Origin: Pseudomonadota bacterium
GTDB taxonomy: Bacteria > Desulfobacterota > Syntrophia > Syntrophales > JADFWA01
Assembly (NCBI GenBank): GCA_030612385.1
Contig: JAUWNZ010000014.1
Span: 1 to 12,723, forward strand
Reading direction: 5' to 3'
DNA length: 12,723 nucleotides
The notes under the pieces: model-generated
Database searches by the model: none
Seen by the model: the letters and a program-made list of their open reading frames with translations, nothing else
Told to the model about the DNA's origin: nothing
Made by a program: the position numbers and the translations under genes
Part shown: in pieces, positions 3,303-12,492 of the stretch
Layout: each line of letters begins with the position of its first letter
Position numbering within the stretch: position 1 is the first letter of the stretch

Positions 3303-3492
3303 TGACTACTCACGCAGTCAGGCTGAAGCTGTTGTAGGCTGAGTAGTTACTTTTGTAATTATTTAGCCACCGATCTACGCAGATTATCACTGATATTTTT
3401 TCTTTTATTGTAACTACTCACGTAGTCACGTGATTTCTTTGTATTTAACCCTATCTGTGTTCATCTGTGTAAATCTGTGGCTGAGCAGTTAC
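3303..3492. repeat. Family A modular inverted-repeat element, copy 2
   Basis: Near-identical in layout to copy 1. Module 1 (3303-3350) begins GACTACTCACGCAGTCAGG and ends GCTGAGTAGTTAC. The AGCCACCGATCTACGCAG block follows from 3365. Module 2 (3410-3492) runs from GTAACTACTCACGTAGTCA to CTGAGCAGTTAC and again holds three ATCTGTG units. The last base touches the rpsD stop codon (3493-3495). Its poly-T stretch is on the plus strand, so the operon mRNA is A-rich here and the element should not terminate operon transcription. It occupies almost the whole rpsD-rpoA gap of 219 nt. Confidence 0.82.
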
Positions 3493-5196: not shown

Positions 5197-5339
5197 AGTG
5201 TCCATCCAGGAATGAAGTTTTTTGTTCAAGATCAAGGCGCGCGAAACAAATAACCACAGACATATATTTGATATTCCGAGGATTATTTTTTGAGCATAAC
5301 GCAGATATCGGGCAAAAAAACCATTTATGGATGGACACT
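5197..5339. mobile_element. Family B MITE-like element between infA and rpmJ
   Basis: A non-coding 143-bp block with 12-bp perfect terminal inverted repeats, AGTGTCCATCCA at 5197-5208 and its complement at 5328-5339. It is flanked by AAAT direct repeats (5193-5196 and 5340-5343), a likely 4-bp target duplication. The interior has no reading frame of note. It fills most of the 205-nt gap between the rpmJ start and the infA stop. Ends plus a duplication suggest a non-autonomous transposon; the mobilising transposase is not in the window. Confidence 0.75.
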
Positions 5340-10259: not shown

Positions 10260-10282
10260 TTATAATTCTCCTAATTTCCTCG

Positions 10283-10365
10283 GTAACTGCTCATAACTAC
10301 TCACGTAATCACGTGATTTTCCCGTATTTAAACCTATCTGTGTGAATCTGCGGCTGAGTAGTTAC
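10283..10365. repeat. Family A element, copy 3 (module 2 only)
   Basis: Lies between rpsH and rplF. It has two tandem left ends, GTAACTGCTCA (10283-10293) and TAACTACTCA (10294-10303), then module 2 with the 12-bp palindrome AATCACGTGATT (10308-10319). The right end is CTGAGTAGTTAC (10354-10365). It has two ATCTGTG-like units instead of the three in copies 1 and 2, consistent with loss of one 10-bp unit. Module 1 and the CGATCTACGCAG block are missing. The remaining gap sequence up to the rpsH stop at 10429 includes TTCGTGTCTTTGCGCCTTAG, which may be a further repeat. Confidence 0.78.
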
Positions 10366-10991: not shown

Positions 10992-11177
10992 CTACCAACT
11001 TGATTTTATCACGCCGGGAATTTCACCTGCAAGAGCAAGTTTTCTCAAGCATATCCTGCACATATCAAACTTCTTATAATATGCCCTCGCCCTCCCGCAT
11101 ATAGGGCATCGGTTATATTGCCTGACAGAAAATTTATTTTTCCTCTTTGCCTTTGCAATTAAGGACTTTTTAGCCAC
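10992..11177 (-). CDS. rpsN: 30S ribosomal protein S14 type Z (zinc-binding)
   Basis: Small-subunit head protein uS14. The short 61-residue form with two CxxC pairs (C24/C27 and C40/C43) is the zinc-dependent type. The core [30 protein letters not shown] and the end PGVIKSSW match the family. The GTG start has the strongest ribosome-binding site in the window, GGAGGTGA at 11181-11188. Upstream, a 180-bp element separates it from rplE, ending only a few bases before this site. Confidence 0.97.
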
Positions 11178-11188: not shown

Positions 11189-11195
11189 AACCTTA

Positions 11196-11375
11196 GGGTC
11201 TGTCAGGAAATAACTCATACACTTATGCATCTCATCTTCAGGCCATCTTTAGCCGATCCTCAATCGCAAAAACCTCGAAATAGCACAACTATTCCTCTAC
11301 TTTTGTGGGGTAGTATCGACTAAATCTAACCTAAATCTGAGCGCCTAATCGCACAACTTATTTCCTGACAGACCC
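11196..11375. mobile_element. Family C MITE-like element, copy 1 (180 bp)
   Basis: Terminal inverted repeats GGGTCTGTCAGGAAATAA (11196-11213, complement at 11358-11375) are perfect over 18 bp. TTA flanks both ends (11193-11195 and 11376-11378), a likely 3-bp duplication; CTTA is an equally possible 4-bp reading. The right-hand TTA is the rplE stop codon read on the minus strand. The interior has no coding frame and closely resembles copy 2 in the same orientation (shared CTCATCTTCAGGCCATCTTT). Removing element plus one TTA restores a normal 15-nt rplE-rpsN gap. Confidence 0.88.
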
Positions 11376-11915
11376 TTAGTTTCTAAAAGGCATTCCCATA
11401 AATCTCAAGAGTTCCCTTCCCTCATTATCTGTTCTGGCCGAAGTGACAATTACTATATTCATTCCTCTGACACTGTCAATCTTGTCGTAATCTATCTCAG
11501 GAAAAATAGCCTGCTCCTTAATACCCATGGAAAAATTTCCACTTCCATCAAAAGATTTTGGCAAAATACCCCTGAAATCCCTGATCCTCGGAAGGGCAAC
11601 ATTAACAAGCCTGTCGAAAAACTCGTACATCCCGTTCCGCCTCAGAGTAACCATACAACCTATTGACATACCCTTACGAAGTTTAAATGTAGCAATAGAC
11701 TTCCGCGCCTTTGTGACAATTGGTTTCTGCCCCACAATCATGGAAAGCTCAGAAACAGCATTATCAATTATCTTTATGTCCTGGATCGCCCCACCCAGAC
11801 CCATATTCACAACGATCTTTTCGAGCTTCGGAACTTCCATCCTGCTTTTATATTTAAATCTCTCTATTAAGGCGGGAACTACTTCTTTCTTATAATGCTC
11901 TTTTAATCTTGCCAT
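11376..11915 (-). CDS. rplE: 50S ribosomal protein L5
   Basis: 5S rRNA-binding protein uL5 of the central protuberance; it contacts P-site tRNA. The 179-residue product has the usual start ([20 protein letters not shown]), the signature [16 protein letters not shown], the [19 protein letters not shown] segment and the end [14 protein letters not shown] start with GAGGGAAGAGGG before it. Both neighbours are separated by copies of the same 180-bp element, and its TAA stop coincides with the target duplication of the downstream copy. Confidence 0.98.
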
Positions 11916-11934
11916 CCCTCTTCCCTCAGTCTAA

Positions 11935-12114
11935 GGGTCTGTCATGAAATAAGTATCACATTTATACATCTCATCTTCAGGCCATCTTTAGCCGATTCTC
12001 AATCGCAAAATCCTCAAAAGAGCTCTGCTATTCCTGCGGTTTTGCTCACTCGCATCGACTAAACCTGACCCAAATCTGAGCGCCTAACTGCAACACTTAT
12101 TTCATGACAGGCCC
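11935..12114. mobile_element. Family C MITE-like element, copy 2 (180 bp)
   Basis: Same length and orientation as copy 1. Ends are GGGTCTGTCATGAAATAAG at 11935-11953 and, complemented from 12096-12114, GGGCCTGTCATGAAATAAG (one mismatch). TAA flanks both sides (11932-11934 and 12115-12117). The rplX stop, TAG on the minus strand (12116-12114), uses two bases of the duplication and the terminal base of the element. Removing the element leaves TAG and a 15-nt gap to rplE. It lies close to where, in E. coli, S8 binds the spc mRNA near the rplE start. Confidence 0.88.
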
Positions 12115-12434
12115 TAATCGTCCAATATTTCATCACACCTTTTGCAGACACGCACCTTTTTGCCATCATCCAATATGCGGTATCCCACCCTGATGCCGGC
12201 GTTACATTTGTTACACATCAGCATTACATTAGATATATGCACAGAACCTTCTTTTTCTATAATACCACCCTTCCCCTGCGCATCCGGTTTCTGGTGTTTT
12301 TTTATAAAATTCAACTTCTCCACGACCACGCGGTTCCTCTTTTTAATAATATTAAGAACCTTACCGGTTTTACCTTTTTCCTTGCCGGCAACAACTGCAA
12401 CCATATCATCCTTTTTCAGCCGCGATCCTCGCAT
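12114..12434 (-). CDS. rplX: 50S ribosomal protein L24 (zinc-motif form)
   Basis: Assembly-initiator protein uL24, which binds the 5' part of 23S rRNA. The start chosen is the ATG at 12434: GAGGGA lies just before it (12441-12447), and it gives 106 residues, the normal size; a GTG at 12461 would add nine residues. A KOW-type RNA-binding segment (KKDDMVAVVAGKEKGKTGKV, about 7-26) and NRVVVEKLNFIKKHQKP are typical. C74/C77 and C97/C100 form two CxxC pairs, a probable zinc ribbon found in many but not all bacterial L24 proteins. The stop codon overlaps the end of an inserted element. Confidence 0.96.
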   Translation of the reverse strand: MRGSRLKKDDMVAVVAGKEKGKTGKVLNIIKKRNRVVVEKLNFIKKHQKPDAQGKGGIIEKEGSVHISNVMLMCNKCNAGIRVGYRILDDGKKVRVCKRCDEILDD

Positions 12435-12440
12435 ATCCAA

Positions 12441-12447
12441 TCCCTCA
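12441..12447 (-). promoter_or_regulatory. Ribosome binding site deciding the ATG start of rplX
   Basis: TGAGGGA on the minus strand, six nt before the ATG at 12434 and inside the longer GTG-started frame. It supports the shorter 106-residue L24. Confidence 0.6.
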
Positions 12448-12492
12448 GCATTCACGCTCACATGTTACAATCAATATCGCAAATAGTTATTA

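Follow-up and report, generated by a model that had tools for sequence, protein, structure and literature searches.

MITE-like insertions at ribosomal-protein stop codons carry a conserved hairpin core with strand-specific pairing

Two related repeats of equal length interrupt a bacterial ribosomal-protein operon, each at the stop codon of a gene. What kind of element lies there, why does it lie at stop codons, and which part of it has been conserved? The window analyzed here, 12,723 nucleotides long, comes from an incomplete MAG of 1.61 Mb in 324 contigs, in which it constitutes contig C258. A preliminary description made from the letters of the window had proposed MITE-like copies with a possible tie to the IS5 family and a built-in tendency to land harmlessly at gene ends. 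We find that the copies at rplE and rplX are MITE-like insertions with an end type of the IS5 family (DUF4096). Their interior is a conserved, strand-specific hairpin core that the earlier reading overlooked.

Two insertions in a ribosomal-protein operon

The operon runs on the minus strand of the window and includes rplX (uL24; 115 amino acids; 12114–12461), rplE (uL5; 179 amino acids; 11376–11915), and rpsZ (uS14; 61 amino acids; 10992–11177), which were named from their sequences and from operon order. Elements of exactly 180 bp follow rplE (copy 1; 11196–11375) and rplX (copy 2; 11935–12114); rpsZ is the next gene past copy 1. The two copies are 81% identical and have the same orientation. 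Both fold better on the minus strand, which is also the sense strand of the operon and on which model R1 scores copy 1 at 158 bits and copy 2 at 175 bits (59 and 54 bits on the plus strand, respectively). By end pattern, copy 1 begins with GGGTCTGTCAGGAAATAA (11196–11213, plus strand) and closes with the inverted repeat of that sequence (11358–11375, minus strand), which gives the end pair GGGTCTGTCAGGAAATAA/TTATTTCCTGACAGACCC. The ends of copy 2, GGGTCTGTCATGAAATAA (11935–11952, plus strand) and GGGCCTGTCATGAAATAA (12097–12114, minus strand), form the pair GGGTCTGTCATGAAATAA/TTATTTCATGACAGGCCC with one mismatch. The inverted repeat extends beyond these termini, and each copy forms one full-length hairpin (z −11.4 and −10.2).

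Copy 1 is flanked on both sides by TTA (11193–11195 and 11376–11378), and the right-hand repeat, read on the minus strand, is the TAA stop codon of rplE. Copy 2 is flanked by TAA (11932–11934 and 12115–12117). Its right-hand repeat overlaps the stop codon of rplX (12114–12116, minus strand), a TAG built from the repeat and one G, with an offset of one base. Removal of the elements in silico leaves TAA and TAG stops and 15-nucleotide gaps to rpsZ and rplE. The preliminary description of two 180-bp copies in the same orientation, with near-perfect inverted ends, TNA duplications placed on stop codons, and an excision that restores stop and gap, is accurate once the one-base shift at rplX is allowed for.

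The gap between rplX and rplE is empty in all three genomes of the same family that were compared (G001, G002, and G003; loci L337–L339, one per genome, with a second, more distant rplE match in G003 lying outside the comparison), which indicates that copy 2 inserted after the split from these genomes. In all three, rplE ends in TGA and the ~70 bases displayed downstream are free of the element.

Copies, ends, and insertion sites of the family

BLAST comparison of the element with the source genome returned 17 rows: 3 for the window copies themselves, 8 for full or partial copies at other loci, and 6 for matches to ends only. A scan of the same genome for the end pattern found 22 end-like sites (4 in the window) versus none for a reversed control pattern. 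The element matches 25 of the 155 genomes of the order. In a covariance-model scan of the phylum, for which up to six candidates per genome were scored under stricter filters, 51 of 395 genomes gave matches at E ≤ 1e-6, a class whose weaker members include hairpins of other lengths; 26 of the 51 reached E ≤ 1e-20. A core pattern recovered at least 117 stretches from named genomes, some of them by chance (12 have no profile match). Desulfobacterota groups, a Chromatiaceae MAG, Nitrospirota, and Rokubacteria are among the labels of the matches listed, host names being those of MAG records and multi-copy elements being prone to mis-binning. Plasmids and phages yielded no match to copy 1.

Boundaries were called for 74 copies within a permitted range of 160–239 bp; 45 measure 179–180 bp and 67 measure 177–184 bp. 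Matching TTA/TTA or TAA/TAA duplications flank 31 of 53 copies from the order and 44 of the 74 boundary-called copies, two overlapping sets (orthologous copies L044/L084 and L060/L089 were counted separately), so most copies retain the repeats seen in the window. The target logo, drawn from 52 sites, resembles C-T-W-A-G. Coding potential is unsupported, with a median longest open stretch of 19–43 of ~60 codons per frame; single copies are fully open. Short, non-coding, bounded by paired terminal inverted repeats, flanked by target-site duplications in most copies, and dispersed with empty sites, the 180-bp element has the properties of a MITE.

Several loci have unusual forms. Mixed flanks, TTA at one end and TAA at the opposite end, surround 6 of the 53 and 6 of the 74 copies, for which recombination between copies is one possible cause. 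At a site common to G127 and G049, the element of G128 is only 45 bp long (L082, 1487–1531) and its right flanking repeat differs by one base. This remnant is consistent with palindrome-driven deletion, by which the palindrome can be lost. A 37-bp minimal derivative (L106 in G000:C160, 1406–1442) consists of the two ends only, between TTA and TAA. Nested elements are found at L107 (G000:C79, 2341–2667) and L279; they include a 141-bp type within a 180-bp element and a 180-bp type within another. The Desulfocapsa MAG G156 (L215) contains at least 98 end-like sites in 1.7 Mb among the matches listed (none for the control pattern). These belong to several hairpin families (180, 159, and ~56 bp), many lie close to contig ends, and no cognate transposase was seen in this MAG.

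Cut-and-paste transposition by an IS5-like transposase would be the simplest reading of the ends and duplications. TNA targets are known in the IS5 family from IS1031-like elements (ISfinder). The IS5 link, which had been drawn from target form, gains support from two IS5/DUF4096 insertion sequences that share the end type of the element and are flanked by duplicated TTA or TAA. A search for PF01609 gave 38 hits in 11 of 12 genomes, and one of the 30 that were inspected (L144) is an insertion sequence with fitting ends. L144 is 943 bp long, has ends GTGCTTATCCGTAAATAA and GAGCCTATCCGTAAATAA and TTA flanks, and its first ORF encodes DUF4096, an IS4/5 transposase domain. Two relatives lie on viral contigs; L306 has ends GGATTTATCCATAAATAA and GGACCTATCCATAAATAA with TAA on both sides, and no such ends were found at L305. 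The ends of L144 and L306 match subgroups of the element such as GAGCTTATCCGTAAATAA. By the ends and 3-bp target that it has in common with L144 and L306, the element qualifies as a derivative of the IS5 family; the fit is close only for the GAGCTTATCC and GGGCTTGTCC end subgroups and looser for the GGGTCTGTCA ends of the window. The likeness lies in ends such as GAGCCTATCCGTAAATAA and GGACCTATCCATAAATAA and in the TTA or TAA duplications, whereas the insertion sequences are ~0.9 kb and coding and the element, which is non-coding, has only its ends in common with them.

An autonomous insertion sequence with the window's own ends was not found among the end hits of the source genome, the PF01609 loci, the DUF4096 searches, or the end pairs listed in 15 genomes. 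No cognate transposase was found in the source genome, an incomplete MAG. L144 was the sole fit among the 30 of 38 PF01609 loci inspected earlier and all 12 further loci, in MAGs that are likewise incomplete. The DUF4096 transposase protein search was positive in one of the 155 genomes of the order (G139) and PF13340 in one of 18 genomes, again G139. G162 and G169, each with several element ends, gave no PF01609 match. A 2.9-kb end pair in G156 (C52), considered as an insertion sequence, was rejected; it comprises two short hairpins that flank ordinary genes. We infer from the ends and duplications that the transposase moving the element is IS5-like.

Does the element seek stop codons? With one flank kept per copy, 28 of 104 copies (L216 among them) overlap a stop, 45 are intergenic, and 31 lie in ORFs called by a simple longest-ORF rule; 10 of 114 copies were excluded because they lie near contig ends. 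By the same count, 11 copies lie 5–52 nucleotides ahead of a stop. Measured against non-coding TAA/TTA sites from these loci, stop overlap occurs at two- to threefold the expected frequency (15 versus 5.7–6.9 in the order set, one flank per copy), and the enrichment over random target sites foreseen in the preliminary description is thus present. When either flank is permitted, 36 of 104 copies touch stops, and 36 of 81 compare with 10.9–12.1 expected, a count that inflates the observed value; the one-flank count does not allow this second chance. The stops struck are TAA (20), TAG (7), and TGA (1), TGA accounting for 131 of the 341 stops in those loci. Because the target prefers C-T-W-A-G and 27 of the 28 struck stops are TAA or TAG, such stops are natural targets, and to this extent the proposed tendency stands. 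No clear preference beyond the target motif emerges; within 40 nucleotides downstream of a stop, 27 of 41 compares with 22.8 expected, which is not significant (P 0.06). The landing at stops needs no cause other than the target motif and survival at gene ends. Gene ends would tolerate insertions, the stop codon being in many cases the TWA target, and the 15-nucleotide gaps of dense operons would hold few alternative target sites. The position of the elements at stop codons in essential operons can be explained in this way without special targeting.

A conserved core that pairs on one strand

Alignment of 53 diverged copies revealed that the outer ~30 bp are lineage-specific yet pair with the partner end, whereas the inner ~115 bp are conserved (mean column identity 0.63–0.65 for the outer parts versus 0.83 for the core). 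End types differ by lineage and include GGGTCTGTCA, GAGCTTATCC, GGGCTCGCGC, GGGACTCGGA, GGAGGCTATT, GGCGTCGAGC, and others. From close to distant pairs of copies, the ratio of outer to apical changes is 1.8, 1.7, 1.8, 1.25, 2.0, and 2.4, with no steady rise, a series compatible with neutral decay as well as with selection. The best-conserved part is the tip of the hairpin, GATTGAGCAAAACCGCAGG...TCGAGGATTTTGYGATTGAGG. Aligned to model R1, the apical motif of copy 2, ACCGCAGG-AATA-loop-TTTTGAGGAT, is located at 12010–12040 and that of copy 1, in which the left half has decayed, at 11271–11301, both on the minus strand.

The minus strand is the more stable one in all 58 non-redundant copies, by a mean of 26 kcal/mol, and in 53 of 53 copies under DNA parameters, by a mean of 9.9 kcal/mol. 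The copies share ancestry, and 58 of 58 does not amount to 58 independent events. L116 was removed from this comparison for weak core words; L155, L188, L202, L216, and L233, removed as doubtful before the alignment, are still among the 58. Elsewhere in the window, six palindromes or repeats split evenly in direction, three each way, with differences of 1 to 17 kcal/mol. The difference of 17 kcal/mol was found in an unrelated repeat at 1681–1865, whose sister copy differs by under 1 kcal/mol, and a strand difference in a single copy therefore means little. That repeat belongs to a second dispersed family (1681–1865 and 3305–3488, ~185 bp each with pieces more than 90% alike, and a partial copy at 10272–10361), which lies between genes of the same operon.

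In a strand-neutral pairing register, the core contains 395 G-T versus 55 A-C cells, with agreement in 53 of 53 sequences, and 23 core pairs are G-T-major versus 6. The outer arms show the same bias (97 versus 27 cells; 14 versus 2 pairs). The covariation score of 0.532 compares with 0.208 ± 0.006 for shuffled alignments (0 of 500) and with 0.103 for the best slid value, and both partners vary in 52 of 65 pairs. In all, 94.2% of cells are paired, a value inflated by derivation of the structure from the same alignment; the 58-copy strand comparison is independent of that structure. Columns 88–107 are occupied by G-U in 43 sequences, A-U in 9, another combination in 1, and never by G-C. Rfam returned nothing at gathering score, its three sub-threshold hits (up to E 1) belonging to unrelated families.

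The apical motif, ACCGCAGG...TCGAGGAT, is also present in hairpin elements with other ends. Those of ~141–145, 161, and 176–179 bp contain ACCGCAGG[CA][GA]TA...TAYKTCGAGGAT, or sequences close to it, on whichever strand folds more stably. In all 96 motif hairpins examined, most of them 180-bp copies, the greater stability belongs to the strand that bears the motif. Because the model that retrieved the families with other ends includes the motif, the sharing is partly selected and the list is not unbiased. The 176–179-bp hairpins (L382–L384) combine the same apical motif with ends, CCCGCATTTCTCACC, that match the inverted repeats of a 487-amino-acid transposase locus of another kind (L293, Chromatiaceae MAG). 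The 159-bp family of the Desulfocapsa MAG is motif-free yet strand-asymmetric. Within the window, a 141-bp hairpin element (5198–5338, plus strand; model R1, 32 bits, E 1e-6) lies a few bases after the 3′ end of infA in the opposite orientation; it has a decayed apical motif, ends GTGTCCATCC, and the 6-bp repeat TAAATA on both sides. Hairpins of ~141 bp with a like core also occur in other genomes of the phylum. L188, from a planctomycete MAG (Candidatus Scalindua), has ends TATACCCAT... and the variant apical motif CCAGAGG...TCGAGG.

What does the fold serve? That a one-strand hairpin has been kept between ends that differ by lineage suggests a role of the folded strand in the life of the element. 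The strand-specific pairing, which extends to the diverging outer arms, indicates, at the level of sequence comparison, that a single-stranded folded form would matter. Orientation relative to host genes is unbiased (21 versus 17 tandem pairs and 16 versus 9 stop overlaps; 8 copies near contig ends were excluded), and for this reason the fold probably benefits the element and not host mRNA, with no sign of host use of the predicted RNA. We consider it probable that the element is a non-autonomous MITE, moved by IS5-like DDE transposases, whose conserved hairpin interior needs to fold on one particular strand. Such transposases would cut and paste the element via its paired ends, insertion would create the 3-bp TWA duplication, and success of the element would depend on the strand-specific fold. 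The folding strand would be transcribed into an RNA hairpin, ssDNA extrusion being less likely, and the apical motif may be bound by a factor that aids movement or tolerance of the element. Because G-U positions are conserved, as in columns 88–107, we infer RNA rather than ssDNA; a binder of the motif is postulated. It weighs against this reading that cognate transposases are missing in nearly all hosts searched, mostly incomplete MAGs, and that copy 1 lacks half of the apical motif.

It is tempting to go further, although this proposal is tentative, and to regard the conserved structured RNA (ACCGCAGG...UCGAGGAU within a long G-U-rich hairpin) as a selfish unit that crosses phyla on successive transposon systems. 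Ends of IS5 types and ends resembling those of the 487-amino-acid DDE_Tnp_1 transposase would be exchanged, the RNA core would be kept, and a shared host or transposition factor would be recruited. G-U pairs would provide a full RNA fold while the DNA palindrome stays interrupted and escapes palindrome loss.

An ordinary MITE, whose interior is the inherited remnant of one horizontally spread ancestor and whose strand asymmetry was fixed by chance and has no function, would fit the shared ancestry of the copies, their dispersed and often intergenic positions, and the scarcity of open frames; other MITEs also fold into hairpins (PMC10969869, PMC2229807). We consider this explanation unlikely. 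Recent spread by a single transposase would leave ends less variable than the interior, yet the opposite is seen; helices 3 and 5 of the core show ongoing compensatory change; and in the fast-changing outer arms, 14 of the 16 scored pairs share the G-U bias.

Hairpins of single-stranded DNA are recognized in attC sites and in REP/RAYT systems. Selection might likewise act on a minus strand that extrudes during replication and is recognized by a transposase or host factor, a reading with which the 53 of 53 result under DNA energies and the absence of bias towards host transcription agree. We regard it as improbable; the asymmetry shrinks with DNA energies (9.9 versus 26 kcal/mol, in 53 versus 58 copies), and matching 3-bp TWA duplications fit the staggered cut of a DDE enzyme rather than an HUH enzyme or tyrosine recombinase. 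An mRNA hairpin past the stop that protects or processes operon transcripts for the host, a role proposed for Correia/NEMIS and ERIC (PMC2229807), would suit the stop contacts counted with either flank (36 of 104) and the sense orientation of both window copies, but is very doubtful given the unbiased orientation overall, the empty site in relatives, and the decay of copy 1.

Known elements and meaning

The proposed MITE with a strand-specific interior can be compared with several described systems. Its core was listed among predicted short RNA elements in Geobacter by Aklujkar et al. 2009 (PMC2700814), with occurrences in G. sulfurreducens, G. uraniireducens, and Desulfotalea psychrophila; these elements are intergenic, and one lies between dapAB and dapL. 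Their central palindrome, GRCGTAGCGCTGCTACGCC, is found verbatim in 12 of 386 loci, not each verified as full-length; the carriers include the full-length copies L076, L103, and L104, and the window copies contain diverged forms of the palindrome. Mobility, ends, duplications, varied ends, strand-specific covariation, and the wider spread are not described in the available part of that report.

The MITE Chunjie was named a year earlier. In that work, the structure of a phosphate operon is reportedly undisturbed by the insertion. Chunjie of Geobacter uraniireducens (Chen et al. 2008) measures 178–235 bp and has inverted ends, direct repeats, and intergenic copies, one of them in the phosphate uptake operon and called a disrupted copy in a review (PMC10969869). 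It resembles our element in size range, inverted ends, direct repeats, and intergenic position and, compared by description only, probably belongs to the same family.

Correia/NEMIS, ERIC, and YPAL are of the same length class (~100–200 bp), form hairpins, and are mostly intergenic, with ERIC co-transcribed with its neighbors. Correia and ERIC differ in having TA at their termini and YPAL in duplications of 3–26 bp, and the available part of the source reports no varied ends on a conserved core for them (PMC2229807). REP/RAYT and IS200/IS605 elements, which depend on an HUH transposase, are set apart by the absence of target duplications, which are present here. Other bacteria also have stem-loop families that are strand-specific and contain G-U pairs (PMC2267715). 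In the literature covered on the present family, mainly openly accessible papers and their available text, neither varied ends nor strand-specific covariation is described. The core had been noticed before; its mobile identity, varied ends, TWA duplications, strand-specific covariation, and a motif common to element families are new here.

These comparisons link two separate Geobacter reports, of 2008 and 2009. The usual picture of a MITE is a pair of ends around arbitrary contents; here, it is the contents that are conserved, covary, and fold on one strand only. A bacterial MITE would thus carry a working RNA or ssDNA structure, and the reason for conserved MITE interiors in bacteria becomes directly testable.
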